The notes below the pieces were generated by a model, which was not told the DNA's origin, did not search any database, and saw only the letters and a list, made by a program, of their open reading frames with translations. Below are positions 1 to 37,711 of a DNA stretch of 40,284 bases, piece after piece. This stretch comes from Bacteroidales bacterium (GTDB lineage: Bacteria; Bacteroidota; Bacteroidia; Bacteroidales; JAAYJT01), in assembly GCA_014860575.1 (NCBI GenBank), contig JACZJK010000044.1:1-40284 (forward strand). The letters are read 5' to 3'. The translations under genes and the position numbers were made by a program. Each line of letters opens with the position of its first letter. The stretch's first letter is position 1.

Positions 1-1001
1 CACTTGGCATTGACGCTTTGGTTTGCCCTGAGAGTATAGCTGCAGATGAACTCGTAAGATTGCTGCAACAACCTTCAGCAACCGAGGTTTTCGATTTCTC
101 TGAAGGGCGGTTGATGCTATTTCTCGTGAGGTTAGATGAAAAATCCCTGGTTCTGAACCAAACACTCAATGATATAGCTCACCTAAACCCAAAACTCGAT
201 TTCAGGGCAGTGGCAATCCACCGGAACGGTAAAACAATTGTGCCCAAAGGAGATGATCATTTTCAGCTAAACGACCTTATTTATGTTGTAACCAAGCCCA
301 GTGGTATCGAGGAGTTATTCCGGTTGGGCGGTAAAGAAAAGCACAAAATCCACAATGTTATGATTATTGGCGGAGGGCGAATTGGTCGTGAAACAGCCCG
401 AAAGCTTGAAGACGATTTCAATGTAAAACTGATAGAGATTGACAAGGATCGGTGCGTGCACCTTTCTGACCTGCTCCACAATACACTGATCATCAATGGT
501 GATGCCCGGGATACCGAAATACTTGAAGACGAAGGCATCAGGAATATGGATGCTTTTATAGCAGTTACCGATGATACCGAAACAAACATGTTTTCCTGCC
601 TGCTTGCCAAGCGCCTGGGCGTTAAACGTGTGATCCCACTTGTTGAAAACATTGACTATATTGATATTTCGCAGAGCATAGGTATTGAATCAATCATCAA
701 TAAAAAACTGATTACCGCCAGCCACATCGTACAATATACAATGGATGCTGAAGTCACAGCAATCAAATGCCTGAGCGGCATTGACGCCGAAGTGCTGGAG
801 TTTGTGGTCAAACCCAAGGCAAAAATTACAAAAGGACCTATCAGTAAAATTAAAACACCGCCCGGATCGCTAATTGGAGGCATTATACGTGGCAAGGAAA
901 GTTTTATTGCCACCGGAAGTTTTCAGGTTGAAGCTGGCGACAAGGTGGTTGTGTTTGCTGTACCTGATGCAATCTACAAAGTTTCTTCGCTTTTTAATTA
1001 A
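1..1001 (+). CDS. trkA: TrkA potassium uptake regulator, C-terminal part (5' end outside window)
   Basis: This is the cytoplasmic NAD(H)-binding regulatory subunit of the Trk potassium transporter. The reading frame is open from the first full codon (base 3) with no start, so the N-terminal RCK domain lies outside the window. What remains is the end of the first half (LGIDALVCPES), a TrkA-C domain, a second Rossmann RCK domain with the dinucleotide motif GGGRIG followed by the acidic strand end LIEIDKD, and a final TrkA-C domain. The whole family is about 450 aa and about 332 codons are present. The next gene, trkH, encodes the membrane channel partner 28 bp downstream on the same strand, so the two form a transport operon. 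The identification is firm. Confidence 0.93.
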   Translation, partial: LGIDALVCPESIAADELVRLLQQPSATEVFDFSEGRLMLFLVRLDEKSLVLNQTLNDIAHLNPKLDFRAVAIHRNGKTIVPKGDDHFQLNDLIYVVTKPSGIEELFRLGGKEKHKIHNVMIIGGGRIGRETARKLEDDFNVKLIEIDKDRCVHLSDLLHNTLIINGDARDTEILEDEGIRNMDAFIAVTDDTETNMFSCLLAKRLGVKRVIPLVENIDYIDISQSIGIESIINKKLITASHIVQYTMDAEVTAIKCLSGIDAEVLEFVVKPKAKITKGPISKIKTPPGSLIGGIIRGKESFIATGSFQVEAGDKVVVFAVPDAIYKVSSLFN

Positions 1002-9668: not shown

Positions 9669-9723
9669 TTGATAATAATTCAACGCCTGTTTGAGTTATA
9701 TAAAGACCATTAAACCTGCCGAA

Positions 9724-19473: not shown

Positions 19474-20292
19474 ATGAAAAAACATTTTATTAGCCTTGCA
19501 GTGATCTCAATGTTCCTGCTTTTTTCGACAAACTTCGTAACTGCTGATAACACAAATGCCCCGCAAGCATCAGTAAATGCATTTGCAAAACATTATGGCC
19601 AAATACTTGAAGCATCAGAAAGAGGGCCACTTGATGCACTCGTTTATATTGATCTTGAACTGGAAGATGGTAAAGTACTTGATGCATTGCTTAATTTAGG
19701 CTATACAATAACAGTAGCCACTGACTGGTTTGATTTCAGCACTGAATTGAACACCGGTGATTATGGGCTTGCTGTTGCATTTAACCAAAACTTCACATGG
19801 GAAAGCACCGGAGCAAAGCCCACCTTGCTTCCTGCATTAACTGCATATATAGGCAATGGGGGCTCTGTGGTTTTTGGTGATTGGAGAACCGATAATGACT
19901 TTGCTACTTTATTTGAAGCACAGTTTACCGGCGTTAATAACCAAACTCAAATGACCCTTGATGCCTCTATTGAAGATGGACTCCCAAATCCATTAACACT
20001 CTCAAATACGGGTTGGGGTATTTTTTCAACAGGACTCGTAGCGATCGGAGGCGGGCAGGCTTTAGCTACCTTCCCTAATGGTGATGCCTCAATAGTTAGA
20101 GGTAATAGCGGCAGAACAATTATTTTGGGCTATTTGTCAGATACACCTCCTGCAGACGACAGACAGCAACTATTTGAAAATTTGTTCGTAGTAGCAACAG
20201 ACCCACCAGTTCCACTCTCTAACTGGGCGCTTTATCTTGGCATTTTTCTTATGATTGCATTTGTTGTTATCCGTTTCAGAAGAATGATCTAA
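19474..20292 (+). CDS. Secreted protein with exosortase-type C-terminal sorting tail
   Basis: A 272-aa exported protein with a signal peptide (residues 1-24, ending FVTADN). The body looks like a flavodoxin/GATase-1-like alpha-beta fold: DALVYIDLELEDGKVLDALL, then LTAYIGNGGSVVFGDWR and GNSGRTIILGYLSD. No catalytic residues are recognised. The tail is tripartite like PEP-CTERM-class signals: PVPLSNWA (245-252), a hydrophobic helix (about 252-266), then basic RFRRM. The motif with its Trp resembles the IPTLxxWG (IPTL-CTERM) type known to go with exosortase H. I infer cleavage and surface attachment by the exosortase encoded next. Two palindromes and a promoter precede it and a terminator follows, so it can be expressed separately from, and more strongly than, the sortase. 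Confidence 0.75.
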   Translation: MKKHFISLAVISMFLLFSTNFVTADNTNAPQASVNAFAKHYGQILEASERGPLDALVYIDLELEDGKVLDALLNLGYTITVATDWFDFSTELNTGDYGLAVAFNQNFTWESTGAKPTLLPALTAYIGNGGSVVFGDWRTDNDFATLFEAQFTGVNNQTQMTLDASIEDGLPNPLTLSNTGWGIFSTGLVAIGGGQALATFPNGDASIVRGNSGRTIILGYLSDTPPADDRQQLFENLFVVATDPPVPLSNWALYLGIFLMIAFVVIRFRRMI

Positions 20293-20314
20293 TTCTATCT
20301 TTAAAACACATTAA

Positions 20315-20342
20315 AGCTGCTTCTTAAGAAGCGGCTTTTTTT
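20315..20342 (+). terminator. Rho-independent terminator after the CTERM protein gene
   Basis: An inverted repeat AGCTGCTTCTT / AAGAAGCGGCT (one G-U pair) is followed by a run of seven T. It lies 22 bp after the stop codon and separates the substrate gene from the exosortase gene. Confidence 0.85.
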
Positions 20343-20440
20343 ATGACACTTAAGTAATCTTTTGTTCATTCTTCCAACTGTATTTTTTACTACTTTTAGC
20401 GGCTTAATCAAGCAAAGCAACTAATAACTTCCAGAATCTT

Positions 20441-21040
20441 ATGTCGCCATCAAAAAAGTTATCTAAACAAGAAATTAAAACCAAGCAGCATGAAAAAGCA
20501 GCTAAAAAGGAAGCATTCCGTCAATTTCTAAAGCATTTTATGCCCCTCGTACTGGCGGTGGTACTTTGGCTGATTATTAGTGCAATCCTGCATTTGCCAG
20601 CATTCAGAAGCCAGGTCCAGGAGTTCTTCATAAGATTTACGTTAGATGCGGCTGTTGGTTTTGGCAAGCTGATTTTCTTACCTGTTGATAGCTATGTATT
20701 TCCTAAGATTACTGTGGGTGGCTATACAATGGAAGTAATTATGGAATGTACTGCTTACAACTTTTATATCTTCGTTGTGTGCCTCAGCTTATTATCACCT
20801 GTTAGTTGGAAGAATAAATTGCTAACACTTGTCATTTTCCTAACTGCAGTTTTTATGGTGAATAATCTTAGGTTCTATACCATGGGTTATGTTGGAAAAC
20901 ATCACTCGCATCTTTTCCATGATATTCATGACTACCTTTGGAATATTCTATTTGGTTTTCTTGTTTTCCTGATATGGCTGTGGCGTTACAAAGATGCAGG
21001 GATCAAAAAACCAGTAGTACCAGAAGAAATAGGCAAATAA
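20441..21040 (+). CDS. Exosortase/archaeosortase family transpeptidase
   Basis: A 199-aa polytopic inner-membrane protein of the exosortase/archaeosortase family, which cleaves C-terminal sorting tails and passes the protein to a surface anchor. The expected catalytic residues are present: Cys103 in MECTAYN, Arg144 in VNNLRFYTMGY, and His160/His163 in LFHDIHDYLWN, each beside a hydrophobic segment. A lysine-rich cytoplasmic N-terminus precedes the first helix. The protein is at the short end of the family, like the XrtH-type sortases rather than XrtA/EpsH. The neighbouring CTERM-tailed protein is its likely substrate and the next gene is a membrane partner 21 bp downstream. The exact subfamily is uncertain. 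Confidence 0.85.
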   Translation: MSPSKKLSKQEIKTKQHEKAAKKEAFRQFLKHFMPLVLAVVLWLIISAILHLPAFRSQVQEFFIRFTLDAAVGFGKLIFLPVDSYVFPKITVGGYTMEVIMECTAYNFYIFVVCLSLLSPVSWKNKLLTLVIFLTAVFMVNNLRFYTMGYVGKHHSHLFHDIHDYLWNILFGFLVFLIWLWRYKDAGIKKPVVPEEIGK

Positions 21041-21061
21041 CTTATCAACACCCCCGAGGAT

Positions 21062-21577
21062 ATGGCACTAGTGTCTTCAAAAGGAACAAAGATCGTAGCA
21101 TTAATAATTATTTCTGCGATCGTGTATGCAGGCTGGTTAAAAGGTCTAGAGATCATCTACACCCGTGTGTTGGTTGCCGGAACAAATGTAGCCCTGGGTA
21201 TGGTAAAGAAAGACACGCGCATCGAATTGGAGAAAGCAAATAGCACTTTCCAATTTAAGGTTCGCACACGTATTGATGGCAGAAAAGCATCGTTTACTCA
21301 ACCATTCGGCAGTTTACTACAGCCGTTTGTAATAATACTTTCCTGGCAGATATTTCTTCTCATCGCTATCTCATTTAAATCAGCGGTCAAAGCTTTTGGT
21401 GTTAATGTGGGGATTTTTCTTTTGTTGCAAATAGTCTTTCTAATTTTGTTGACAGGTTATCACTCTTCAGAAACCCAAAAATTCATTTATATTCTATTTA
21501 TGGATAGTTTCTATATTATGGCACTGGTACTGGTAATCAAGGATAATATGCTATATCAGGTTTTCCGCAGAATATAA
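21062..21577 (+). CDS. Exosortase-linked 4-TM membrane protein
   Basis: A 171-aa inner-membrane protein with one N-terminal helix (about 9-28), a polar, basic extracytoplasmic stretch (about 45-92, with IELEKANSTFQFKVRTRIDG), and three more helices (about 96-170). No catalytic motif is seen. It starts 21 bp after the exosortase gene behind a GAGGA ribosome-binding-like sequence, so the two are co-transcribed. I recall that some short exosortases have a dedicated membrane partner, and this fits by position and topology. It may present or hold substrates, or shape the active site; this is inferred from context alone. Confidence 0.65.
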   Translation: MALVSSKGTKIVALIIISAIVYAGWLKGLEIIYTRVLVAGTNVALGMVKKDTRIELEKANSTFQFKVRTRIDGRKASFTQPFGSLLQPFVIILSWQIFLLIAISFKSAVKAFGVNVGIFLLLQIVFLILLTGYHSSETQKFIYILFMDSFYIMALVLVIKDNMLYQVFRRI

Positions 21578-21695: not shown

Positions 21696-21938
21696 CTATT
21701 CGTTCAACGATGCTTTGCGCGCGTCATACACTTTCTTTGCACCGTATCCCAAACCCATCGCCAGGAGCATCACAAGTCCACTACCAATTGGAGCATTGCC
21801 GCCGATTGGGCCACCACCGCCTGAGCCCCCTCCAACACCTGGATCACCAGGACGCGGTTGGGCTAAAGAAGTGTTGATCAAGGCGCCGGCGCCTATAATT
21901 GATACGACAAGGAATAGTTTTCTTAGCGTTTTTTTCAT
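21696..21938 (-). CDS. Small secreted protein with PID-CTERM-like sorting tail
   Basis: An 80-aa protein starting MKKTLRKLF (ATG at 21938; the frame runs on to 21974, but the extra residues precede a standard signal peptide). The signal peptide ends at SLAQ (residue 27). Residues 28-48 are Gly/Pro-rich (GVGGGSGGGG), followed by a C-terminal tail: APIGSG, a hydrophobic stretch VMLLAMGLGYGAKK, then VYDARK. This matches the PID-CTERM class of Bacteroidetes sorting tails (PI[DG]xG, short helix, YGxKKxxDARK) as I remember it. Nearly the whole mature protein is linker plus tail, so it may be a surface-coat or anchor peptide. It is the last gene of the reverse-strand series and sits next to the exosortase. 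Confidence 0.72.
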   Translation of the reverse strand: MKKTLRKLFLVVSIIGAGALINTSLAQPRPGDPGVGGGSGGGGPIGGNAPIGSGLVMLLAMGLGYGAKKVYDARKASLNE

Positions 21939-21987
21939 AGTCGTGTTGCTTATTTTTCGATGATTATAATTCATTAATTTAACGGGA

Positions 21988-23964
21988 TTAATCTACAAAA
22001 ACTTTTCGTGAACTAATACCCTGATCGCTAATCACCTTAACAACCACATAGGAGTTGGATACAGGTAAAGTAATAACATTCATTTGTTCCGTGAGTGCTT
22101 CACGAACCAATTCCTGACCCAAAACGTTCATAATAATGATTTCACCTTTTGCATTTCCTGCATCAACATACACTTGTTTATTGATTGCAAAAATATTTGC
22201 AACTTGCTGATCCATACCAGGTACACCGGTTAGCGTCTTAAAGTGAATCTGGAAACGGTTTACATCGTCTTCCGTATTCGCAACAAAATTATACACCGGG
22301 TTATCGCGCAAATTCCATTGCACATCAGCAACCTGATCGTAAAGCCAAACAGGAAGCATATCATCAAAGGAATTTATACCTGAAGCTGTAAGTGACATCA
22401 TCGCATCAACACCAGCCTTAAAGCCAACGTTGACAGGGATTTCATTGTTAATTGAAGGCATTGCATTGATGGCAAGTGATTCATTATTTGAAGTAACTGA
22501 GTAAATCTGAGGAACGTCTTCTGAAGCTACTAGCTTAAAGAAATCAAATTGTTCATCATAATTTACACCAGCGTCTTCAGCAAAACGAATCACAGCTTCA
22601 TCGCTAAAATTGCCATGCTGAACTAACAGGCGTAAGGTATTTGTCGGGTCACTCTTGTAGAAGTTCTGCGTTGTGTGAGCTCTTGCGGCATTACTTACTC
22701 CAATCGTTCCATTGGCTGAAGCCTTAACAAAGAAACCTTGCATCGGTGGAATGAATTGTGATCCATTATTTGCGGGAACACCAAAGGCATAATATCTGTA
22801 GTTATCAATGGTTTCATCCCAATAGGCTACACCATTACCTACATTTACGCGTGTCCAACCTGCTCCGTCGACATCAAGTGCTGAGGGATATGGATTTCCA
22901 ACAAGGTTCCATCCATCGTAATCAGGATTTCCGGAAGTACCAAGAGCTGTAACAGCGATGCTGTAAGGACCGTCGTTTAACATACCTGTGAATTCAAGCA
23001 TCTTATCGTCGGTTCCGTGGAATGCCGTTGCATAACCAAGCATTGGTGTATTCAGAGTTACTGAAGTCCACTGGTCGGGTTGTACATCAACCCATACACT
23101 TCCTGGTTCGTTCCATGTCTGCAAATAACAGTTCAGGAAAACATCATAAGACTCAACAGCATTAACAGGTACTGAAACCAGGTGCCAGGCCAGAAAACCA
23201 GGCATAAACTGCTTTACAGTTCCGTCAAACATAAGAGGTGCACCTAAATTCACGAATGATCCGGTTCCGGTTGGATCAGAATCAATCAGGAAATCTCCAC
23301 TGACAGCAAGTGCTGCACCATCATTTACTGTAAGCTCTCCATCTATTGCAATTGAAAGATCATTTGCGACAGCGGAGGAACTTATGCTGGCAGCGCCTTC
23401 TACGAAAACATTGTGAAACGAGTTCGGAACTACATCCAGACTCCAATCGAGCGCTGTTTCCCATGCGCCATCAACTATGATATTATCAACAAAACCGCCT
23501 AATACAGCTCCGTCAACAAGATTTGGAATGGCAACAGCAACGAATGATGTATTAAAATACTCAGAAGCATAAGGTGCATTAGTTATAAAAGCTAAATCCG
23601 AATTACCGCCAAGATATGTGAAACCAAGTGAAACCAATTCCCCATCTGGTATAGTAAATAATACAAAATTTGGATGGTACATTTGAATTCGTAAAATGGT
23701 TGGAGACATATTCGAAACCGTTATCTTAGTAGGATCAGAATTGTTAATGACACCGGTAAATGATATCACTGAGGGATCATACTCAACATAAATTAATACA
23801 CCGAACACACTAGAAGGGAAATCGCTAACATTAATTGGCATTTCAATAACGCCACCTACTGCAGGAACATCCTCTCCTGAGAGAGTCGGGGTTGACACTG
23901 TTTGTGCAAGCGAAACCGATCCTGTGATCAGTAAAACGCTTAAAAGAAATATCAGTTTTTTCAT
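21988..23964 (-). CDS. Secreted cohesin-like domain protein with T9SS sorting domain
   Basis: A 658-aa exported protein with a signal peptide ending VSLAQ (about residue 20). Residues about 22-155 form a cohesin-like module: VIEMPINVSDFPSSVFGVLI, then VEYDPSVISFTGV and VSLGFTYLGGNSDLAF. The middle (about 160-560) is beta-rich, like many Bacteroidetes surface proteins, with WNLVGNPYPSALDVD and FIPPMQGFFVKA. The end (about 585-658) is a T9SS type A-like sorting domain, with IIMNVLGQELV and a final SSRKVFVD. No enzyme motif is recognised. It starts 31 bp after the 716-aa gene's stop. Export through T9SS to the surface is inferred from the tail. Confidence 0.8.
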   Translation of the reverse strand: MKKLIFLLSVLLITGSVSLAQTVSTPTLSGEDVPAVGGVIEMPINVSDFPSSVFGVLIYVEYDPSVISFTGVINNSDPTKITVSNMSPTILRIQMYHPNFVLFTIPDGELVSLGFTYLGGNSDLAFITNAPYASEYFNTSFVAVAIPNLVDGAVLGGFVDNIIVDGAWETALDWSLDVVPNSFHNVFVEGAASISSSAVANDLSIAIDGELTVNDGAALAVSGDFLIDSDPTGTGSFVNLGAPLMFDGTVKQFMPGFLAWHLVSVPVNAVESYDVFLNCYLQTWNEPGSVWVDVQPDQWTSVTLNTPMLGYATAFHGTDDKMLEFTGMLNDGPYSIAVTALGTSGNPDYDGWNLVGNPYPSALDVDGAGWTRVNVGNGVAYWDETIDNYRYYAFGVPANNGSQFIPPMQGFFVKASANGTIGVSNAARAHTTQNFYKSDPTNTLRLLVQHGNFSDEAVIRFAEDAGVNYDEQFDFFKLVASEDVPQIYSVTSNNESLAINAMPSINNEIPVNVGFKAGVDAMMSLTASGINSFDDMLPVWLYDQVADVQWNLRDNPVYNFVANTEDDVNRFQIHFKTLTGVPGMDQQVANIFAINKQVYVDAGNAKGEIIIMNVLGQELVREALTEQMNVITLPVSNSYVVVKVISDQGISSRKVFVD

Positions 23965-23995
23965 ATTGTAAGATTTTAATTTTACTTAATTAATA

Positions 23996-26146
23996 CTAGG
24001 GGATCACATAGGAGGCATTAACGTCACCAGAACTTAATCCCTTAATATTTACTGATACATCTCCACCGGAGACAGTGATTTGAGGATTCTCAAAAGCCCA
24101 TAAAGGAGCAGTCCAGGCAGGAACAAACGCATTTGGAGGCAAACTGTTGCTGATGATAATTGCATCAAAAACGTTTACTGTCGCATCTGCATTAACGTTG
24201 GCCACCTTGAACACAAGAGTACCCGGTACATAAGTACCCGGAGCAGCATTGGCTATGATGATTGCATCAAATATATTCACGCCACCCCATGGTATAGATG
24301 TTGAGGCGTCGAGCATATAATCTCCATCAGCAACATTAAGAAACTCATAATAGCCATCTACGTCTGTAGTTGTTGTTTCCAGAATGCTTAAGCCATCGGA
24401 ACTTTTGAGGTGTACTTCTGAGTTCGCAAGCGGTGTATTAGCCTGATTTGCATATTCTAAATATCCGCTAACCATAAATCCGCCAGGAGTAACATTCACT
24501 CCACCATCTTCAAGGCTGATCGGAATCAGGTTCAAATCAGTGTCATACAATTCAACACCTGGGTTGAAAACCACAGGGGCAGCGCCGGTTCCCGGATAGT
24601 TAAAGTTAAGTTCCACCAGCAATCCATCTGCCATAAGCTGACCACCGGAGTTGCTCCAATTCAGGGTAACCTGATTTGAAGTACTTGTTGCAACCCATCC
24701 TGAAAATGCAGGGTTGGTTGCGGTAAAACCAGTGTAGATAAGTTTACCTGCCGGGAAACCAACTTTTAGTGTGATAGAACCTACTATTATAGAAGCGTCA
24801 AAATCACTGGCTGTAATAGGAACTACAACAGGGAAACTGGTTGTTCCACTTACTTCACCGAGAGTCAATGTTGCATCATGATCTGCAGGAACTACCATCC
24901 CATTCTCAAATTCAACAGGTATAGTTTCAAGATCAGTGTCAGTGATTAAAGTTCCCGGGCCAAATTCAACCGATGCCAAACCGCCCCCATTATACATAAA
25001 CTTTACTTCAAGAAGCAGACCGTCACCAATAGTCAGACCACCAGAATTAGCTCTGTGAATGGAGAGTACACCACCTGAAGCACTCACGATCCATCCAGCT
25101 ATGGATTGATAAGGAGTATATGCTGAGAATGTAAGCTTCGCGGGATCATAACCAATTTTAAGCGTTATTGCTCCTACTTCAAAACCTGCAAAGTCAGCAG
25201 CATCAATAGGAATGGTAACGAGAGTACCAGGTGTACCATTAACTGTTCCGAGGGTCAGTAAAGGATCGCCAAACAGAGGTGATACAACTGTGTTTACATA
25301 ATTCACCGCGATTGGTGAAAGAGCATCAGCAATTTCGCTTCCCGGATAAAAAGCCAGGTCAGCATCACCACCGCCATTGTAAACAAATTTCAGGTCAAGC
25401 AGGGTTGCAACTGATGTGAAATCCTGTGCAGCTCCTATCCAGTTTAATGTCAGAAGCCCATCGTTTGATGCTGAAGCTACAACACCAGCAATTGCATGTT
25501 CTACTTTCCCAGCATAAACAAGTTTAGCAGGATCATAAGCAATTTTGAGTGTTATAGAGTTCACTGCGCCAAAGTCAGGTCCTTCAATAGTTACAGGTAC
25601 TGTTGCTGTGCCGCCCACAAGTACCAGGCCAGGATCAACCAGTGATACCACATTGGTAGTGGTAACCTGGGTAACGCTGCCAGGAATAAAAGTCGCGGCA
25701 ATTGGAGCCAAATTTGACCCAACAATTTCAGCGCCTGTAACTGCTACCGGAGTAGAGAATCCCCCTGGATAACTAAATTTCAGGTCTAGCAATTTACCGT
25801 TGATTGTAGTTCCGGCCATACTCTGCCATGTGATCCTAAGGAAATCCCCATTACTAACATAGTTGGCCATGATGCCAAGAAAAGCGGGGTTTTCGAAGCC
25901 ACTAAAAGTTAGCAGGTCGGAATCATATTCAATATCTAATGTGATAGCGTGCACATTTCCATTTGTGAAACCCAGCATGTCAAGAGGAACCAGAATTACA
26001 CCTGGCTCTTCAACAACATCATGAATTTGCACTGTTTGTGCCATCACCCCAGATACGGTAAACAGCAGGACGAATATCAATTGATATATCCTTTTTATCA
26101 TATGCTGTAGGGTTTTTCGTTTCATAATATTTTCTTTCATATTCAT
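23996..26146 (-). CDS. Multi-cohesin scaffold protein with C-terminal dockerin-like repeats
   Basis: A 716-aa exported protein with signal peptide ending VSGVMAQ; the likely start is the ATG at 26125, with earlier in-frame ATGs at 26140 and 26146. Four tandem cohesin-like modules follow (about 37-160, 161-290, 291-420, 421-553), each with a V.VPI.... start, an AITLKIGYDPAKLTFSAYTP-type strand pair and a LLDLKFVYNGG-type end. Residues about 555-613 form a carboxypeptidase-like/CNA-B domain (TTTDVDGYYEFLNVADGDYM). The C-terminus has two dockerin-like repeats, WGGVNIFDAIIIAN and VNADATVNVFDAIIISN, then GDVNASYVIP. There is no T9SS tail, so secretion or attachment may depend on partners. It starts 10 bp after the 344-aa gene. 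A scaffold role is inferred. Confidence 0.78.
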   Translation of the reverse strand: MNMKENIMKRKTLQHMIKRIYQLIFVLLFTVSGVMAQTVQIHDVVEEPGVILVPLDMLGFTNGNVHAITLDIEYDSDLLTFSGFENPAFLGIMANYVSNGDFLRITWQSMAGTTINGKLLDLKFSYPGGFSTPVAVTGAEIVGSNLAPIAATFIPGSVTQVTTTNVVSLVDPGLVLVGGTATVPVTIEGPDFGAVNSITLKIAYDPAKLVYAGKVEHAIAGVVASASNDGLLTLNWIGAAQDFTSVATLLDLKFVYNGGGDADLAFYPGSEIADALSPIAVNYVNTVVSPLFGDPLLTLGTVNGTPGTLVTIPIDAADFAGFEVGAITLKIGYDPAKLTFSAYTPYQSIAGWIVSASGGVLSIHRANSGGLTIGDGLLLEVKFMYNGGGLASVEFGPGTLITDTDLETIPVEFENGMVVPADHDATLTLGEVSGTTSFPVVVPITASDFDASIIVGSITLKVGFPAGKLIYTGFTATNPAFSGWVATSTSNQVTLNWSNSGGQLMADGLLVELNFNYPGTGAAPVVFNPGVELYDTDLNLIPISLEDGGVNVTPGGFMVSGYLEYANQANTPLANSEVHLKSSDGLSILETTTTDVDGYYEFLNVADGDYMLDASTSIPWGGVNIFDAIIIANAAPGTYVPGTLVFKVANVNADATVNVFDAIIISNSLPPNAFVPAWTAPLWAFENPQITVSGGDVSVNIKGLSSGDVNASYVIP

Positions 26147-26156
26147 TGATAATGGT

Positions 26157-27191
26157 TCATTGTTTAATTATTTTCACAGTGTTAAGCACCACAGCTTCGC
26201 GCTTCAGTTGAAGAAAATAAAGGCCGTTTTGAAGGTCATTTGTATAAATGCTTCCAGAACGTCCCTCATTCAAATCAATGTTGGACGCATTATAAACACT
26301 TTTGCCCAACAAGTTAACCAGCTCAAGGCTGACATTGCTCATCGGAGTGTTTACCGTATAGTAAAGCTTATCGCTGCAGGGATTAGGATAAACATTGAGT
26401 ACAGGATTTTTCTTAAAATTGTCATTTATTCCAAGCGGAGTCACCAAAAGGATGGCAGAGTCGCTGGTAAGATAACAATCATCGAGAGTAATGAGACACC
26501 TGAAAAAATGATTATCGAAATCCAATGGAACACTATTAATAATGAGTTCATCGGTATCAGTTCCGGAATAGTACATATCATTGGCAAGATTGCTCCAGCC
26601 GTTGCCGGAATTCAATTGCCACTGATATGTTGAAACACCATTCTGGATAATAGTGAAAGTAACAGGATCATCCTCAATAACAGTAACACCCTGAGGTTGA
26701 TTGATGATTTCAATCGGTTCTACAAATCCATTATTAAAAATGGCATTGCCAACCAATGTCAGATCAGATAAAGCAATCTCACAATCATCACTCAAATTGA
26801 GTGTAGGTGATCCATGCTTGTAAACAAGCTTCAGATCAAATAATTTTCCTGAAGATATTGAGACTGGGGTGTTTCTCCACCAGGTCACAACAATTTCACC
26901 ATCAAGTTCCATAAAATTGGAGGAAATATTTCCTCCGCTTAAGCTGGCATGCGGATTCATCACAGCATCGAATTCTAGTTCCTGTGTATTGATCTCAATG
27001 TTTAGTTGCAAAGAACCAACATTATTAAAATCAGACACAAACACCGGAAGCAGGATTTCAGAGTTCTCGCAATGATATTGCTGATCAATGCTTACTGTAA
27101 GCTGGCTGTAAACAGCCGTCTGAAACAGTAAGAAAGCGAGCAATACCATGCCAACCTTGTCCCTTGCTTGTATGATGAATCTTTTACTCAT
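26157..27191 (-). CDS. Secreted cohesin-like / Ig-like protein with T9SS sorting domain
   Basis: A 344-aa exported protein with signal peptide ending TAVYSQ (about residue 30). Residues about 31-165 resemble one cohesin module: EILLPVFVSDFNNVGSLQLN, then IEINTQELEFDAV and GKLFDLKLVYKHGSPTLNL. Residues about 168-262 form an Ig-like domain with YQWQLNSGNGWSNL. The end (about 270-344) is a T9SS type A sorting domain with NVYPNPCSDKLYY, VNLLGKSVYN and NGLYFLQLKREAVVLNTVKI. Its stop is 10 bp before the multi-cohesin gene, and a hairpin lies 51 bp upstream of its start, after the 1512-aa gene. It may be a cohesin-bearing surface anchor for dockerin-tailed partners; this is inference. Confidence 0.8.
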   Translation of the reverse strand: MSKRFIIQARDKVGMVLLAFLLFQTAVYSQLTVSIDQQYHCENSEILLPVFVSDFNNVGSLQLNIEINTQELEFDAVMNPHASLSGGNISSNFMELDGEIVVTWWRNTPVSISSGKLFDLKLVYKHGSPTLNLSDDCEIALSDLTLVGNAIFNNGFVEPIEIINQPQGVTVIEDDPVTFTIIQNGVSTYQWQLNSGNGWSNLANDMYYSGTDTDELIINSVPLDFDNHFFRCLITLDDCYLTSDSAILLVTPLGINDNFKKNPVLNVYPNPCSDKLYYTVNTPMSNVSLELVNLLGKSVYNASNIDLNEGRSGSIYTNDLQNGLYFLQLKREAVVLNTVKIIKQ

Positions 27192-27242
27192 TATATAATA
27201 TGTACCCTAAGAACCTTAAATCAATGCCTGATTAGAATAGAA

Positions 27243-27273
27243 TTTACCGGAGGGGATTTTCCCCTCCGGTAAA
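27243..27273 (-). terminator. Hairpin after the 1512-aa gene (terminator or attenuator)
   Basis: A perfect 13-bp GC-rich stem (TTTACCGGAGGGG / CCCCTCCGGTAAA) with a 5-nt loop, 12 bp past the stop codon in the direction of transcription. The following T tract is weak, so some read-through into the 344-aa gene is likely. Confidence 0.75.
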
Positions 27274-27285
27274 ATTCATTCAGGA

Positions 27286-30200
27286 TTATTGCATGATGAT
27301 CATGCTATTGGTAGCTGTGTGTGTAGCTTCGCCTTCTACAATAATTTTGCAGAAGTAAACACCTGCGGTTAGGTCAGCGCGACCGAAATCAACCGTATGT
27401 GTACCAGCTTCCTGACGTGCGCTTACCAATGTTTCAACAACCTGACCCAGTTTGTTGTAAACTACCAGGCTTACATTACCATCTTCTGGTAAATTGTAGC
27501 TGATTGTAGTAGTTGTACGGAACGGGTTAGGATAATTGGTCATGAACAATGCATCGCTAACAGTGCTAAGAGCAGTTGTTTCGAGGCTGATGTTCTTGAT
27601 TGGCTGAGCGTTGCGATCAGCAAGTTCAGTATTGGCTTCAAGTTCGAAGAAGCGGGTATTGGCTTTGATGTCGCCAAGTACGCGTACCTGGATCGTTGCA
27701 ATGGCATCGCCGAATGCAAAGTTTGCAGGTTGATCGAGGTTGTACCACATCACGCGGATAGTTCCGGTTTCGGCATCAACCATGAAGAAGTCTTCATCGT
27801 AATTTACACCTATAACTTCAATCAGGCTGGTGTTGTAGCTAAGATCCAGTGAGATGGCACCAACTTCAGCATTTTGGTCAATGCGGATAGGTACTTCAAC
27901 AATCTGGCCTTTGCTTACAATTTGTTCACCATTATATACCAGGGCCATTTCGGATTCAGCCTTGAAGCCACCACTTGTTGGTACGTAGCTCGAATTGGCA
28001 TCACCAAGGGCAAGGTAATAAATGTGGATGAAGTTCTTATCACTAAGAGTGATTGGTGCACTAGTGTATTTGTGCAGCAGAGCATCAGTGAAGTACAAGT
28101 ATGACTGTGTAGTTGTGGGATATGTAAATGGTACATCATCAGCGTTGTCATAATCAAATGGCATTGGCCAAGTAGTTGTGACAACGTTGGTTACACTAAA
28201 GTCAGGATTAGTCTGAGTGTAGGTCAGATCTGGCACTAGACGTCCGGTTACGCGGAAGTTCGGTGAATACTGAACACCAGGCTGGCTATTGGGGAATACA
28301 TCAATCAATCCAACAGCACGGTAGTTGGTTGTCAGAGCATCAAGTGCAGTGATTCCACCGTTTACGTATGGGTTCGAGCTGTTCACGTCAGCAGCGCTGT
28401 GTGAATAGTATCCATAACGTGGTGAATCAGCAACCGGTCCAACCCAATTAAAGTTGTAAGGAACACCATTGATATCAATTGCAGTAGCCATCATTTGAAC
28501 AGCCAGCGCATCTGTAGCATTTACGCCACCCCAGTTATTATAGGTATAGTTAGCACCAAGATGTGTACCTGAAACAGGAGGAACTCCCGATCCGCCGGGG
28601 AATGCATAATGATAGTACAATCCACCGTCCCAAATCTTGAGCCAGTAACCATCGCAACCAAATTCACCAACATACTCTGTGAGATCGAATTCGAAGTATG
28701 ACATGAATTCAGTAGTAACCCATTCAAATTCGCCAACTTCTACTTCTTTAATTGTAGGTTCAACTTTGGTTACATCAATATATACTTCACCATTCCAAAG
28801 TTCTACATAGAAGTAGTCATGAGGATAGGTAGAGTAATCTATAGTTGGATAAGGAGAAGGCATAAAGGTTTCAAACTGGTTCCAGTATTTAACCTGACCT
28901 GCAAATGTTGGAGCTACAATATCAACTGTAACTTCATCGTATCCAGTGCAATTAGTAAGGTTGCCAATATAAGCAGTTACATAAACTGTTACCGGTCCTA
29001 AATAATTCCACTCGATGGTAACTGAAGTACCTGTATTTCCTCCGATGAAATTACCAGCGCCTGGAGGATTGATTCCCCATACGTAGGTGATGTCATCTGT
29101 AAGATAGCAAGTAGAATTTTCCTGAACGGTGAATGTAGATTCAGCGCAGAGGTTCAATACATCAGGCACTATAATTTCAGGATCTGGTTCTTCGTAGAAG
29201 ATAATAGTGAAGCTTGTTGAACCTTCACATGGACCATTCCCAACAGTATAAGTGAAATCATATTCTCCGCATTCAGTTACTGTAATTGCGAATTCTTCAC
29301 AATCCTGAACAGCAGACAATGAAATAATTGATACTTCGTCAGTAACATCTTCGCCAAGAAGCATAACAGTCCATGTGCCAACAAATCCGTTAGGATCTTC
29401 ACAGTCAACAGTTGTGCAAATAGTAACATTGGTTTCGAATCCACAAACTTCCTCAGCAGCATAAGCTACAACTACTGGTTCGTCAAAGAATCCAATTGTA
29501 ACATAATCTACAGCATAACAATCTTCGCCATTGGATGCCCAATATCCGAACGTGTATACACCGCATAAGGAAACTGTCACTGAACCATTCACGAATGTTG
29601 CGGTACCAGGACCTGATTCAAGGAACCAACCTGTTGCAAAATCAGGATGTTCGCAGATTACTGAAGCGCTGCCCATAAGTGGATAGGTAAGTCCACAAAC
29701 TTCATCATCTTCTCCGGCATCAACTACAGGAATATCGTAGAAGTTAATGGTTACGGTTGATGTTACAGGTTCACATGGACCGTTGGTAACAGTGTATAGG
29801 AACTCATATTCACCACAGTCTGAAACGGTAACAACATCACCTACAAACCCAGCAGTTCCTGGACCATCAACGAGGCTCCACTCTGCCGTATAATCTGGAT
29901 GTTCACAGTCAAGATCAACTTCGGGCATGAGTTCATATACGAGTCCGCAAATTTCATCATTTGGACCTGCATAAACTTCAGGAGTATCGTAGAATTTTAT
30001 CCAAACAGGATCGCTAACCGGTTCGCAATCATTATTATATACTGTCCATAGCAATTCATACTCTCCGCAGCAACCAACAGTGACCATGGTTTCAGGATCA
30101 TTTTCATCATCGAAAACAACAGCACAAGGTCCTGGGGTTTTAACAGTCCAAACTCCGTAAGAATCCGGATGAGCGCAATCGGCAGTCCATGATGCTTCAA

Positions 30201-31824
30201 GTTCAGTGCTTACACCGCAAACTTCCTGATCAGGACCGGCATCAACAACAGGTTCGTCGTAGAAGCTAATAGCAACCAAGTCAGTTACAGGGCCGCAAGG
30301 ACCGTTTGTTACAGTAAATAGGAAGGTATAGTCACCACAAAGATCAACAACAACATCGTTGCCAGTGAAAACTGCCGTGCCAGGTCCTGATACTTGACTC
30401 CAACCTTCCATATAGTCAGGATGTTCGCATGAATATTCTGACCAGGGCATTAATGTATATTCTAATCCGCAAACATCATCGTCTTCGCCTGCATAAATCT
30501 GTGGTGTATCATAAAAATCGATAGTTACCTGTGAGGCTGCATAACAAGGGCCGTTGTTTACGAAAAATTCGAAAGTGTAAGATCCGCAAAGATCAACAGT
30601 TACTGAATTACCATCAAACTCGCTAACTCCCGGTCCAGATAATTGACTCCAACCGTAATATAATTGTGGATATGCACAATCTACACTCCATGTTACATCA
30701 AGGTCATATTCGAGGCCGCAAACTTCATCATCGTCCTGAAGGTCAATCATTGGTTCATCATAGAAGTTGATGTTAACAGTTGTTGCAGCTTCACAAGGTC
30801 CATTTGTTACAGTATATAAGAAGGTATAATCTCCACAAACTGATACAGTAACTTCACTGCCATCAAAATCAGCAGTGCCAGGTCCACTTACAAACGACCA
30901 GGCTGCTACTGCAGGATAATCGCATTCTACTTCATAACTTGCTTCCAGATCATACACGAGACCGCAAATTTCATCGTCGTCCTGCACATATAAATAAGGA
31001 ATATCATAAACTTCAACATTGCGAATTACTTCATCACCGCCACAATTGTTATTATTGGCTTGCAGATAAGTGAAAACAAATTGGTAATCACCACATTCAT
31101 AATCACAGAACTCCAGTGTTTTCTGATATACACCAGGAGCGATAAGGTCAGCTAACAAAATTTGGAAAGCAATTACGCCACCACCATTGATCTCATAAGT
31201 GAGGTCGTATGGAGGCAGAGCTTGTGATTGCGGAGGCAAGTTGATGTCTCTGGTGAGCGTTACAACAAACTCAAAGCATTCGTCTTCACAAGTATCGTCA
31301 ACTTCGGTAACTTCGAGAAGGGGCTTTTCGATTACATAATAGTCACCTTCAACATAGTTGCCATTGTCCCAAGTATAACGAAAAACATAACGGCCGGGTA
31401 AATCAGCGCTGGCTGTTGTGATTTCGTCTGGTGGGGAAGCAATAACCACGGTTGATCCCAAAGGAGATGATTCAAGCGACCAAACTCCAATTGTAGGACA
31501 TTCATCAGCAAAGTTAGTGAACGCTACAATAGGAATTGGCAACCCAATACATACCGATTGAGTTTGAATAAAATAAAGACAGGTAGCGCGATCGCCAGCC
31601 TGAGCTTTGATTACTTTGCTGTCCTGACCGGCTTCAATAGGTAGAAGCGCGTAATTTCCGGGTGCAAGTAGCATAGTCTCAACAAGGTCATCGGTCATGG
31701 CAACCGACAATTCCTCATCGTTAGCTACCTCGACTGTTTTACCCCATTGGGCGAACGTGTTCACACTTAGCAAACTTAATAATGCCACAGTGAACGTGAA
31801 TAACAGTAATTTTCTCATTTTCAT
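27286..31824 (-). CDS. Giant Cys-rich repeat surface protein with dockerin-like and cohesin-like modules and T9SS tail
   Basis: A 1512-aa exported protein with signal peptide ending NTFAQ (residue 26). Residues about 276-880 are seven tandem repeats of about 86 aa, mostly with four Cys each (EVCGL, DCxHPD, DLCGxYTF, TNGPC) and ending FYDxP; the Cys pairs probably form disulfides outside the cell. A PKD-like domain follows. Dockerin-like motifs come next: WGGVNATDALAVQMMA (about 1098) and AADVNSS..VNGGITALDAL (about 1143), with GDANSSYVP near 1276. A cohesin-like module spans about 1290-1420 (VEVPIRIDQNAEVGAISLDL). The final 85 residues are a T9SS type A domain with NYPNPF, YNKLGQVVETL and LTAGVYFCKI. 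It is the first gene of the series and has both halves of a possible cohesin-dockerin pair. No enzyme domain is seen. Confidence 0.82.
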   Translation of the reverse strand: MKMRKLLLFTFTVALLSLLSVNTFAQWGKTVEVANDEELSVAMTDDLVETMLLAPGNYALLPIEAGQDSKVIKAQAGDRATCLYFIQTQSVCIGLPIPIVAFTNFADECPTIGVWSLESSPLGSTVVIASPPDEITTASADLPGRYVFRYTWDNGNYVEGDYYVIEKPLLEVTEVDDTCEDECFEFVVTLTRDINLPPQSQALPPYDLTYEINGGGVIAFQILLADLIAPGVYQKTLEFCDYECGDYQFVFTYLQANNNNCGGDEVIRNVEVYDIPYLYVQDDDEICGLVYDLEASYEVECDYPAVAAWSFVSGPGTADFDGSEVTVSVCGDYTFLYTVTNGPCEAATTVNINFYDEPMIDLQDDDEVCGLEYDLDVTWSVDCAYPQLYYGWSQLSGPGVSEFDGNSVTVDLCGSYTFEFFVNNGPCYAASQVTIDFYDTPQIYAGEDDDVCGLEYTLMPWSEYSCEHPDYMEGWSQVSGPGTAVFTGNDVVVDLCGDYTFLFTVTNGPCGPVTDLVAISFYDEPVVDAGPDQEVCGVSTELEASWTADCAHPDSYGVWTVKTPGPCAVVFDDENDPETMVTVGCCGEYELLWTVYNNDCEPVSDPVWIKFYDTPEVYAGPNDEICGLVYELMPEVDLDCEHPDYTAEWSLVDGPGTAGFVGDVVTVSDCGEYEFLYTVTNGPCEPVTSTVTINFYDIPVVDAGEDDEVCGLTYPLMGSASVICEHPDFATGWFLESGPGTATFVNGSVTVSLCGVYTFGYWASNGEDCYAVDYVTIGFFDEPVVVAYAAEEVCGFETNVTICTTVDCEDPNGFVGTWTVMLLGEDVTDEVSIISLSAVQDCEEFAITVTECGEYDFTYTVGNGPCEGSTSFTIIFYEEPDPEIIVPDVLNLCAESTFTVQENSTCYLTDDITYVWGINPPGAGNFIGGNTGTSVTIEWNYLGPVTVYVTAYIGNLTNCTGYDEVTVDIVAPTFAGQVKYWNQFETFMPSPYPTIDYSTYPHDYFYVELWNGEVYIDVTKVEPTIKEVEVGEFEWVTTEFMSYFEFDLTEYVGEFGCDGYWLKIWDGGLYYHYAFPGGSGVPPVSGTHLGANYTYNNWGGVNATDALAVQMMATAIDINGVPYNFNWVGPVADSPRYGYYSHSAADVNSSNPYVNGGITALDALTTNYRAVGLIDVFPNSQPGVQYSPNFRVTGRLVPDLTYTQTNPDFSVTNVVTTTWPMPFDYDNADDVPFTYPTTTQSYLYFTDALLHKYTSAPITLSDKNFIHIYYLALGDANSSYVPTSGGFKAESEMALVYNGEQIVSKGQIVEVPIRIDQNAEVGAISLDLSYNTSLIEVIGVNYDEDFFMVDAETGTIRVMWYNLDQPANFAFGDAIATIQVRVLGDIKANTRFFELEANTELADRNAQPIKNISLETTALSTVSDALFMTNYPNPFRTTTTISYNLPEDGNVSLVVYNKLGQVVETLVSARQEAGTHTVDFGRADLTAGVYFCKIIVEGEATHTATNSMIIMQ

Positions 31825-32457: not shown

Positions 32458-34404
32458 CTACTTCCTGATCATCTTTTCAGTACCAAACTGATCGCCGCAT
32501 AGTACGCGAATAATGTAGATACCTTTGGGCCGATCGCTTAAATCCATTTCAAACTGCTGTTCTCCATAATACTCATTTGTTAATAAAAGTTCGCCCAGCA
32601 TACTATAAACCTCAGCTTTTACCGCTGATTCAATGGCAACAGTTAAACGGATAGAAAATACGCCCAACGTTGGATTAGGATAAGCGCTGAAAAAGGATAT
32701 CTGATCACCGTACGCAGGATTCTGAAAATCTAGTAGTTCTCCTTCAGTTGAAGTTGTAATAATACTTTTAGCATTGAGGCAATAGTTTCCTTCAGAATCA
32801 ATATAGGCATGAAAACCACCACCAGAATAAACACTGAATCCATCCTTTAGCACAATTGACTTACCTGCAATAAGTTGAAGATATCCACCATTCAATACTT
32901 CAACAATGCTCCCATTTCCAGCGACTGTAATTGTTTCAGTAGCTGATAAACATGTATCTGATGTTGAATTGATTGTGACATCTGCCAGTACTAAGTATTC
33001 TGGGATCCCACCCTGGTCAGGCAAAGTCTCGAAAATCATCTGTGTGCCCAATGATGTACCTATTGCGTTCGTAGCATATGCTTTGTAAAAGTATAAAGTT
33101 GATGGATTAAGATTCTCCAAAACCGCACCAAATTCGCCAATTCCACTTCCGATTGAAAACTGCGTTCCGGAAATCTCAGGATCTGGATCTATTCCCCAAT
33201 AAACTCCCCGATCAGTTACTACTGAGAGACCGTCAGATGTGACCTCCCCACCAATATAGGCAGAATGATAAGTAATTTCAGACGGATCAACCGTATTTAC
33301 CTGGGGTAGGGATAAAGTAGTAAATACTATTTCACTTCCTATGGCAGTACCAATACTGTTGGTTGCATAAGCCTTAACATAATACAATGTAGCAGGCTCG
33401 AGGGAAGTAAGCATTCCTTCGAAAACGCCTATTCCTATACCAATTGAAAAAATATCTCCAGTAACATCAGGATCCGGGCTAGTACCCCAAAATATACCCC
33501 TGTCAGTGATATTATCGCCGCCATCAAAAATTACTTCACCCCCTACCAAAGCTGTCTCATTGTTAATCCCGATAGCTTCAGAAGTAATAACCACAGGCAG
33601 TGCAAGTGTTGTAAACATCACTTCTTCTCCATAGGCAGTCCCTATCTCATTTGTTGCAAAAGCTTTTACAAAATAAATTGTTTGCGGGTCTAGAGGTTGT
33701 AACAACTGGGTAAATGTTCCAACTCCGTCACCTATTTCAATACGGGATCCAGTTAGCTCGGGTTCAGGATAAAGACCCCAGTAAACTCCCCGATAACTGA
33801 CCGTATCACCCCCATTGCAGGTTATTTCACCACCAACAACTGCTGATATATCTGTAATTTCAACAACCGTCGAAGTTGTGACTTTAGGTAGTAATACTGT
33901 GCAGAAACTCAATTCATCACCATAGGAAACCCCTTCGCTATTAACAGCGTATGCAATTACAAAATAATTTGTCGCGGGATTCAGTGCATCAAGCGCATAA
34001 GAAAACAACCCTGAGCCTGAACCCAGCAATACCTGGGTTCCCGAAATAAGGGGATTGGGTTCAGTTCCCCAAAAAATACCACGCTCAGTGACCGCAACCC
34101 CGCCATTGTAAGTTACATTTCCGCCAACAATTACCAATGTTGGTTCAAGGATTACAGGCTCAGAAGTAATAACTGTTGGAGGTTCTTTAGTAGTGACATC
34201 ATAACCCTGATGAAAACCTTGCGATAGAAGAAATGAGCCATTGTTAAGAGTTTCTGTGCTAATTTCGCCAATAGTCCAGTCAAGTCGTAGAGTTGTTCCT
34301 GAGAACTCCCCTCCACTGGTTGATATAACATCCTGCACCACCTCCTGTGACCAGCAAACCAGCGAAAACAAGAAACTTATTAGAATCAAACCTGGTGCTT
34401 TCAT
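32458..34404 (-). CDS. Secreted FN3-like repeat protein with 3-coathanger stack and T9SS domains
   Basis: A 648-aa exported protein with signal peptide ending CWSQ (residue 20), then a segment common in Bacteroidetes secreted proteins (ISTSGGEFSGTTLRLDWTIG). Residues about 75-460 hold four tandem fibronectin-III-like repeats of about 96 aa, each with VGGEV....GG, RGIFWGTSPDPD and YYVKAYATNSIGTA-type segments. Residues about 475-550 match the '3-coathanger stack' pattern (ATETITVAGNGSIVEV, AGKSIVLKDGFSVYSGGGF). The end is a T9SS type A domain (AYPNPTLGVFSIRL, LGELLLTNEYYG, PKGIYIIRVLCG). It starts 73 bp after the 1077-aa gene, probably co-transcribed, and a terminator lies downstream. A structural or adhesive role is inferred. 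Confidence 0.82.
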   Translation of the reverse strand: MKAPGLILISFLFSLVCWSQEVVQDVISTSGGEFSGTTLRLDWTIGEISTETLNNGSFLLSQGFHQGYDVTTKEPPTVITSEPVILEPTLVIVGGNVTYNGGVAVTERGIFWGTEPNPLISGTQVLLGSGSGLFSYALDALNPATNYFVIAYAVNSEGVSYGDELSFCTVLLPKVTTSTVVEITDISAVVGGEITCNGGDTVSYRGVYWGLYPEPELTGSRIEIGDGVGTFTQLLQPLDPQTIYFVKAFATNEIGTAYGEEVMFTTLALPVVITSEAIGINNETALVGGEVIFDGGDNITDRGIFWGTSPDPDVTGDIFSIGIGIGVFEGMLTSLEPATLYYVKAYATNSIGTAIGSEIVFTTLSLPQVNTVDPSEITYHSAYIGGEVTSDGLSVVTDRGVYWGIDPDPEISGTQFSIGSGIGEFGAVLENLNPSTLYFYKAYATNAIGTSLGTQMIFETLPDQGGIPEYLVLADVTINSTSDTCLSATETITVAGNGSIVEVLNGGYLQLIAGKSIVLKDGFSVYSGGGFHAYIDSEGNYCLNAKSIITTSTEGELLDFQNPAYGDQISFFSAYPNPTLGVFSIRLTVAIESAVKAEVYSMLGELLLTNEYYGEQQFEMDLSDRPKGIYIIRVLCGDQFGTEKMIRK

Positions 34405-37400: not shown

Positions 37401-37711
37401 CAAGAAATAAGTCCGAACGATCCGATATCGGCGTTTCCAGATCCGATATCAAGGGTGATCAATCCGCCGGCACTGGTAACAACATTGTGCACTTCACGAT
37501 ACACTTCAGGATTTTCGGGCGCAACTGGTACAACACCAATGCGAACACTAACATTTGATTCAACAATCGGATTGCCTAACAAATCGCGGACAACAGCCTG
37601 ATATTTAAAGGCCTGCGGTGCCTGAGCCAGTAATGAAACTGTGAGTAAGAGCAGGGCAAACATAATCAGCCCACGCATTCTTTTTACTAAACGGTAGTTG
37701 AAAGGGTTCAT
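34478..37711 (-). CDS. Large PKD-like repeat surface protein with C-terminal FISUMP domain
   Basis: A 1077-aa exported protein with signal peptide ending LLAQ (about residue 30). Residues about 33-145 are the N-terminal domain common in Bacteroidetes tail-fibre-like proteins (APQAFKYQAVVRDLLGNPIV, LLSVPYAIYAKEAG). Residues about 200-880 hold eight PKD-like repeats of about 85 aa, each opening like ANAGxDQ and holding GTSTQLxANxPGxGNTGxW and YxLxWTISxxCG segments, many with one Cys pair. The end is a Fibrobacter-succinogenes-type major paralogous domain (CWMAKNLNVGNQIYTSPSNN, GICPAGWRVPTKTEFETL) finishing VRCVKD. There is no T9SS tail. Its last domain is closely related to that of the gene at 38856. 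Function unknown; probably adhesive or structural. Confidence 0.82.
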   Translation of the reverse strand: MNPFNYRLVKRMRGLIMFALLLLTVSLLAQAPQAFKYQAVVRDLLGNPIVESNVSVRIGVVPVAPENPEVYREVHNVVTSAGGLITLDIGSGNADIGSFGLISWGLGDYFVKVEVDIAGGNNFVLIGTSQLLSVPYAIYAKEAGGPPAYTWAQLQEYLQNRTTGATPGMMVYVSDEGKMVYFNGEQWVTTGEQCFPPPSSANAGLDQVDVAGTSTSLEAESPNHGTGLWSIISQDNGVIVSLSDYTDPNALLVSTGGNFVLQWTVTNECGETFDQVYISFCPPNTIANAGVDQTGLIGASTQLSANIPEVGNSGIWSVSGGVGGSFNDIFDPLTTFNGIPGTTYQLRWTISTGCGSNYDEVEINFCYTLTLASAGSDEPGVLGTSITLAGNQPGSGNTGNWTITSGVGGQIVNPALYNGVFTGLPNETYVLKWTISSDCEESFDEVTIYFCPILTEADAGEDQTDIDGTSTQLAANIPGIGNTGLWTIESSMGTLSSGDGFADPTNPQTLFDGTAGATYILRWSITTLCDQFSFDEVTISFCPDLVLAAVGPDVENVCGNYILQGNDMGEGNDAIWAIISGTGGQMTNPGNPDAILAGLPGEEYVLVYTISNACGSSSDTVSVTFEQLPSQANAGNDQENIDDVSTYLEANIPGYGSGVWTIVSGNGGSFAESTNPLTQFFGQPNETYVLAWTISNLCNQSFSDEVTISFCPTLIQASAGPDALNACIPHTLEANNPGSGNTGLWSVLSGTGSSFSDINDPNSTLSGVPGSTYQLVWTISNACGATSDTLIITFGLYPAIANAGPDQLNVEGSTVTLAGNTCTTGGIGQWSIASGDGGVFVDIYDPSTEFTGVPNGQVYELVWTISTVCYSSSDTVKVSFVPVFICGEDLLDERDNKVYSTVQIENKCWMAKNLNVGNQIYTSPSNNGIIEKFCMANEPTNCDVYGGLYSWDELMNYVPTEGSQGICPAGWRVPTKTEFETLATALGGSTAAGGKMKEEGNAHWNNNTAATNESGFTAFGGGFHNGFFIGFKSTGNFATSTPSASNYFHVRLYNSSATFDMLTIAKSAYTSVRCVKD

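Follow-up and report, generated by a model that had tools for sequence, protein, structure and literature searches.

A conserved cohesin–dockerin operon of a Bacteroidales bacterium and its apparently split-loop dockerins

An operon in the 4.4 Mb draft genome of a Bacteroidales bacterium encodes four proteins whose shared modules are almost certainly true cohesins and dockerin-derived domains. The dockerins depart from the ordinary type, in that they appear to have a split calcium loop and to be inserted in a CnaB-like domain. Judged from its sequence, the operon has about an even chance of encoding a surface layer without enzymes, whose T9SS-tethered and tail-less parts assemble in trans and in which one product, p2, acts as an adaptor scaffoldin. 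The window analysed is the whole stretch of 40,284 nucleotides of contig C44. An initial annotation had claimed four consecutive reverse-strand genes; the same ORFs, here named p4, p3, p2 and p1, were recovered, and a conserved fifth gene of the operon, p0, which was absent from that annotation, is added:

27286..31824, reverse strand: p4, ORF of 1512 aa; signal-peptide-like N-terminal end, beta-like repeats, dockerin module, cohesin and T9SS tail
26157..27191, reverse strand: p3, ORF of 344 aa; one cohesin, a weak match to an Ig-like domain and a T9SS tail
23996..26146, reverse strand: p2, ORF of 716 aa; four cohesins, followed by a dockerin that forms the very C-terminus, without a T9SS tail
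21988..23964, reverse strand: p1, ORF of 658 aa; one cohesin, a middle part that contains GWNLVGNPYPS, and a T9SS-like tail
21696..21974, reverse strand: p0, at most 92 aa; start resembling a signal peptide, linker rich in Gly and Pro, and a PID-CTERM-like tail of the exosortase type

With D for a dockerin, C for a cohesin and T for a T9SS tail, the module order from p4 to p1 reads D-C-T, C-T, CCCCD and C, and the gaps between genes are 10 bases (p3 to p2) and 31 bases (p2 to p1). By their sequence the repeats of p4 read as beta domains; Pfam gives no match to them in p4 itself, and it finds a PKD-like match in the homologue L060:3364-8061. The complete order recurs in G001, a genome of the same genus (locus L060) where the counterpart of p2 carries two cohesins, in a Bacteroidales MAG (L153) in which the CCCCD protein is also 716 aa long, and in L156 (3-12691), but there the p3-p2 pair is duplicated, and one p2 copy with an extra cohesin and a T9SS tail (CCCCDCT) adjoins the tail-less CCCCD copy. 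Two more genomes have the gene set in part: G042 (L057) keeps the operon order without p3, and G033 (L059) has a partial operon with p1 spread over two ORFs. Because gene order is conserved in other MAGs, the arrangement is not a product of chance, and the conservation in related genomes that the initial annotation had proposed to look for was found. Elsewhere in the window, two large secreted-looking proteins (34478-37711 and 38856-40250, both on the reverse strand) have very similar C-terminal regions; Fib_succ_major was listed by Pfam in the former, and the C-terminal region of the latter was read by eye. Homologues of 34478-37711 and of 32458-34404 also lie upstream of the operon in G001 (L060).

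Seven cohesins (1 + 1 + 4 + 1) had been counted in the initial annotation, and the count holds:

27574..27921, reverse strand: p4 cohesin, aa 1302-1417; PF00963, iterated profile and fold; cassette-type clade
26727..27077, reverse strand: p3 cohesin, aa 39-155; PF00963 at 16.5 bits, iterated profile at 4e-26
25679..26014, reverse strand: p2 cohesin 1, aa 45-156; iterated profile
25289..25624, reverse strand: p2 cohesin 2, aa 175-286; iterated profile
24899..25240, reverse strand: p2 cohesin 3, aa 303-416; PF00963 and iterated profile
24503..24847, reverse strand: p2 cohesin 4, aa 434-548; iterated profile
23509..23862, reverse strand: p1 cohesin, aa 35-152; PF00963 (genome search) and iterated profile

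In a Pfam scan of the whole proteins, PF00963 (curated cut-off 24.1 bits) exceeded its cut-off in p2 (four stretches, 9.4e-20) and p4 (one stretch, 2e-7), fell under it in p3, and was unlisted for p1, which passed it with 25.7 bits in a six-frame search of the genome. The cohesin of p3 was recognised with an iterated profile built on the cohesins of the window; this profile matches all seven at 1e-21 or better, five of the seven having served as its seeds. The nearest solved structure to the third cohesin of p2 by sequence is 2vn5_A (3.3e-5). Cohesin and dockerin modules were folded as separate modules, and the one cohesin of the seven that was folded, that of p4, had only cohesin-bearing chains among its best 20 structure matches (Z 11.6-12.9); A. 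fulgidus 2xdh is a fold match of this module. An unrelated Ig-like fold, the alternative that the initial annotation had raised, is thus not what this module shows.

Dockerins had likewise been proposed in two of the genes:

23999..24490, reverse strand: p2 dockerin module, aa 553-716; dockerin apparently within a CnaB-like domain
27979..28911, reverse strand: p4 dockerin module, about aa 972-1282, with long insertions; CnaB-like strands, NNWGGVNATDA, ITALDA, then GDANSS

Here the outcome was divided. PF00404 (cut-off 22.9 bits) was unlisted for whole p2 and p4 in the Pfam scan even at E ≤ 1, and the isolated dockerin fragment of p2 scored 13.6 bits, under the cut-off; on the other side, the p2 homologues of L057 (1.2e-8) and L153 (5.7e-6) are over it, and a 92-row profile of the module matches solved dockerins (e.g., 4dh2_B at 1.7e-8) as well as, by sequence, SdrD-type domains and the CipA X-dockerin. 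The module of p4 reached iE 4e-5 with the family profile. Among 23 module-bearing relatives scanned, PF00404 was listed in 12, of which 10 reach or exceed the cut-off. In each of the 12 the best stretch begins at profile position 8-12 because, in the alignment, calcium loop 1 starts only from its position 6. The 11 relatives in which PF00404 was unlisted are counted against the best explanation.

The AlphaFold2 model of the p2 dockerin module (pLDDT 93.2, pTM 0.87) has strands within residues 5-63, helices within 73-115, three of which are predicted in the module, and further strands within 131-153. Single domains of the CnaB/transthyretin-like kind align near full length across model residues 3..155, e.g., the CnaB-like 3e8v with 80/82 residues over 5..153 (rmsd 1.9, Z 11.3) and the CnaB/transthyretin-like 8bdw_A with 90/95 residues (rmsd 2.0, Z 11.4). 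Only residues 5-63 hold strands ahead of the helices and a near-full alignment needs strands after them, so that in the model the dockerin appears to be inserted before the last strands of the CnaB-like sandwich. The X-dockerin pairs of cellulosomal scaffoldins are comparable to a dockerin joined in this way to a CnaB-like domain. Foldseek placed the CipA X-dockerin 4wi0_B at rank 7 (E 1.1e-4, 161 columns) with a TM of only 0.30 and an rmsd of 13.1, and no X-dockerin stood among the 50 structure matches listed for the p2 module, a list filled by CnaB-like domains. The model of the p4 module, a divergent dockerin, has the same order of elements with low-confidence insertions (pLDDT 73).

Instead of two contiguous calcium loops, each with a helix after it, the p2 module has one complete loop and one that is probably split into two distant pieces:

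24266..24289, reverse strand: WGGVNIFD of p2, putative second half of calcium loop 1, GGVNIFD being loop positions 6-12
24164..24199, reverse strand: calcium loop 2 of p2, complete, NVNADATVNVFD
24011..24028, reverse strand: GDVNAS of p2, C-terminal; DVNAS is proposed as loop 1 positions 1-5

The evidence comes from the alignment of modules and from a rejoining of the two pieces. In the alignment, loop 1 is laid out as GGVNxxDA, which follows a Trp and runs from position 6, and as a short GDVNxS at the end of the module; positions 6-12 precede helix 1, and the candidate positions 1-5 (DVNxS) come about 80 residues later. The residues of the C-terminal piece are D in 128, N in 114 and S in 117 of 129 modules, and the same modules have at positions 1, 3 and 5 of loop 2 a D in 119, an N in 74 or a D in 42, and an S in 75; N9 and D12 of the cut loop are kept in 118/129 and 127/129 (modules shorter than 125 residues, p4-type dockerins among them, were left out; 130 were kept and 129 used). 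For four modules the C-terminal piece was placed in front of GGVN and the rejoined sequence rescored with PF00404, which raised p2 from 13.6 to 25.0 bits, L087 from 28.3 to 43.3, L057 from 40.2 to 50.7 and L153 from 31.0 to 38.6. Scrambled controls, made for p2 and L087 only, gave a smaller rise (17.0 and 33.4 bits); that they also rose slightly is counted against the best explanation. A split-loop dockerin topology was not found in the literature searched.

The residues at dockerin repeat positions 10, 11, 17 and 18 are the known cohesin-contact positions, and in dual-mode dockerins the dual-binding rule is tied to the internal repeat symmetry of the recognition residues. In six p2 homologues (the string of L156 was placed by hand after a shift in the alignment; L062, one string of which was treated likewise, does not belong to the six), repeats 1 and 2 match within a module at a mean of 7.7 of 11 positions (8-18), while repeat 1 matches between modules at only 2.3 of 11. 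At positions 10-11 the repeats match in 10 of 12 cases, the shuffled mean being 2.5 (p 0.0013, with relatedness uncontrolled). The recognition residues of the six p2-type dockerins agree between the two repeats while varying from genome to genome, as would be expected of dual-mode dockerins. Across the 129 modules, positions 10, 11 and 18 match more than shuffled, but so do 9, 13, 14 and 20, again with relatedness uncontrolled. The recognition pairs read from p2 (IF/VF) differ from those of p4 (AT/AL), a hint of different partners, and the difference in recognition residues between p2-type and cassette-type dockerins suggests two orthogonal cohesin–dockerin pairings, like the tiers of a cellulosome.

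Export by T9SS had been claimed from three sorting tails:

27331..27537, reverse strand: p4 T9SS type A sorting tail, aa 1430-1498; over both curated cut-offs
26193..26393, reverse strand: p3 T9SS tail, aa 267-333; over both curated cut-offs
21994..22170, reverse strand: p1 T9SS-like tail, aa 599-657; sub-threshold, E 0.36

The tails of p4 and p3 are clear, and the model of the former resembles the C-terminal part of PorU (6za2_A, Z 10.8), but that of p1 is sub-threshold and is inferred by way of the p1 homologue L057:5075-7060, in which the tail scores 7.6e-7. No T9SS tail was found in p2, the protein ending at its dockerin. The genome encodes SprA (SprA_N 563 bits) and at least 150 T9SS tails. 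A short GldN-like protein of a T9SS component family is encoded in the window at 9691-10284 on the forward strand (PF19841, 44 bits, cut-off 23).

The fifth gene, p0, bears a tail of another kind. Small genes of 81-92 codons follow p1 in the window, L060, L057, L059 and L153, and in all five loci their products have a signal-peptide-like start and a PID-CTERM-like tail. Against NF046080 (cut-off 26), p0 scored 23.5 bits as a protein, 25.7, or 26.3 with neighbours, and its homologues 42.3 (L153), 22.1 (L060) and 16.6 bits (L057), the L059 copy being unlisted. Like the substrates of exosortase X (NF046080, NF046081), p0 has a tail that matches PID-CTERM, at about the cut-off; unlike them, it shares an operon with cohesin proteins. 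The three PID-CTERM-like matches of this genome (C44:21723, C50:54338 and C16:103055), two of them sub-threshold, lie at most about 4.2 kb from a cohesin gene. PID-CTERM was rejected as a general marker of cohesin loci, since over all genomes only 6 of 38 sites had a cohesin or dockerin gene in the flank (four of the six in G000/G001, G000 being the genome of the window, and another at G047:C205), the flanks being uneven and often ended at contig ends.

An exosortase/archaeosortase-family protein (20441-21040, forward strand; TIGR04178 40 bits, XrtH-like 41 bits) is encoded beside the operon, between a secreted-looking protein and an unassigned ORF within 19474-21577 (forward strand). The C-terminal end of the secreted-looking neighbour, VPLSNWALYLGI..RFRRM, resembles an exosortase sorting tail by eye, and NCBIfam lists none. 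The exosortase gene was dismissed as a part of the operon because none of the L060, L057, L059 and L153 stretches analysed shows a homologue next to the operon. A second, better XrtX-like exosortase is found at C16:132970-133311 of G000 (91.6 bits, under the cut-off of 170). The window further holds a 389-aa ORF (12475-13644, forward strand) with two tandem GPPGAGKGTQ adenylate-kinase-like halves, which is preceded by a phosphoribosyltransferase-like ORF, both as read from the sequence.

The initial annotation had suggested a self-assembling extracellular coat or scaffold, which is a candidate reading. In the proposed trans assembly, p4, p3 and p1 would be exported and tethered by T9SS, and p2 would act as a four-socket adaptor scaffoldin, its C-terminal dockerin keeping it at the surface by docking into a cohesin of p3, p1 or p4. 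The cohesins of p2 would in turn take up the p4 dockerin and those of further proteins, which the same genome encodes on contigs C57, C4 and C43, and the outcome would be a branched, calcium-dependent protein layer. The least certain step is the export of the tail-less p2, possibly in complex with a tailed cohesin partner. Fourteen proteins of this tail-less kind end in a dockerin, with a T9SS tail in 0/14; for eight of them a tailed cohesin gene lies within 1.5 kb on the same strand, and for the other six none lies within 1.5 kb, some of these being near the ends of their loci. L084 was left out of this count, its D-C-T gene being cut by an in-frame stop (a TAG after the dockerin, in L084:1-4966 of G053).

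The module is widespread. Of 60 relatives, counting the own genome, 16 carry it, and 98 of 395 genomes of the phylum match it at 1e-6; near-full-length modules were counted by eye in about 12 genomes, the own genome included, among the matches listed, and many others look partial. A contig scan of 84,980 species left 78 loci, labelled as 72 Bacteroidota, 2 Ignavibacteria, 1 Alphaproteobacteria and 3 'uncultured bacterium'. The locus labelled Alphaproteobacteria (L137:465-9354) carries D-C-T and CCCCT genes, and a tree of 58 cohesins pairs the cohesins of this locus with cohesins from a Bacteroidales MAG; the locus is perhaps mis-binned. Expansions of the cassette on varied beta-domain proteins were seen in G053 (24 matches) and RA.bin97 (10 loci, L094 to L144).

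A less likely alternative is that dockerin and cohesin form a structural cassette of rigid, calcium-stabilised adhesin-stalk domains, in contact in cis or not at all, with no trans assembly. The 139 modules of the collected loci, which include two canonical dockerins (L053 and L069), comprise 109 D-C-T, 5 D-C in which no tail was recognised, and 25 of other kinds, three of which are p4-type proteins with a tail; the D-C-T share, which speaks for such a cassette, is biased because the scan query was itself a D-C-T cassette. The gap between dockerin and cohesin in D-C-T proteins is near-constant (median 19, range 16-27 residues), the families listed for the cargo consist largely of beta domains, and in the tree of 58 cohesins a single starred clade (100/100) unites the 14 from D-C-T cassettes and leaves out the scaffold cohesins, namely those of p1, p2, p3 and the four-cohesin proteins; all three features would suit stalk domains as well. 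A trans partner, however, better fits the fourteen proteins that end in a dockerin without a following cohesin or tail, and also the rows of four cohesins in proteins without a dockerin; the matching recognition positions in both repeats of p2-type dockerins likewise argue against the cassette being structural only.

The other alternative, which we consider unlikely, is an ordinary extracellular enzyme complex, in which enzymes encoded elsewhere would dock on p2 and the operon would supply only the scaffold. The initial annotation had described the operon as free of enzymes, and indeed Pfam (E ≤ 1) lists no enzyme or CBM in p1-p4: a scaffoldin with several cohesins, one trait of a cellulosome, is present as p2 with its four, but neither a CBM on it nor dockerin-bearing plant-polysaccharide enzymes were found among these genes. 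The other dockerin proteins of the same genome could be read as the docking partners, and in relatives the cassette sits on peptidases (C25 in 3/27 proteins, papain-like C1 in 1/8), so that the system beyond this operon is poor in enzymes rather than strictly free of them. Against docked enzymes, no glycoside hydrolase or other plant-polysaccharide enzyme was seen in the best 25 of 45 families in 27 cassette proteins of relatives.

Compared with the clostridial cellulosome (type I/II; CipA X-dockerin), the operon is alike in the cohesin fold, in the internal repeat symmetry of the dockerin recognition residues, and in a scaffoldin with several cohesins whose terminal dockerin is coupled to a CnaB-like or X-type domain. 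It differs in having no listed enzyme or CBM, in T9SS tails in place of Gram-positive anchoring, and in a dockerin that seems to lie within the CnaB-like domain with loop 1 split. Cohesin and dockerin modules outside cellulosomes were reportedly described by Peer et al. in 2009; such noncellulosomal modules, e.g., A. fulgidus 2xdh, are similar, whereas a conserved multi-gene operon with T9SS tails and a split loop sets the present case apart. The closest published system in the literature searched, as far as the accessible part of its source goes, is the enzyme-carrying complex of Ca. Stygibacter (Cloacimonadota), in which dockerin enzymes and a CTD-bearing cohesin scaffoldin are proposed to form a cellulosome-like complex (PMC8542988), a precedent for docked enzymes. 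According to the same part, both systems combine dockerin and cohesin proteins with T9SS-type C-terminal domains, the scaffoldin bearing one; its dockerins, however, are on GH18, GH57, S8/S53 and C25 enzymes, its scaffoldin has CBMs, and no split dockerin is described there.

Returning to trans assembly, a bolder and quite tentative version would hold that these dockerins are a new class, a plug threaded into a CnaB-like domain with one calcium site closed when distant pieces meet, that this plug drives enzyme-free surface arrays in Bacteroidota, and that p2 and other scaffoldins without a tail are carried across the outer membrane by T9SS-tailed cohesin partners. The tail-less p2 raises the question of whether T9SS can export a partner held non-covalently by its cargo. 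If the reading is true, the split loop would couple the folding of the module to calcium binding, the split-loop dockerin would be a new orthogonal plug for protein engineering, and cohesin–dockerin assembly would be a general, mostly non-enzymatic surface construction kit of uncultured Bacteroidota.
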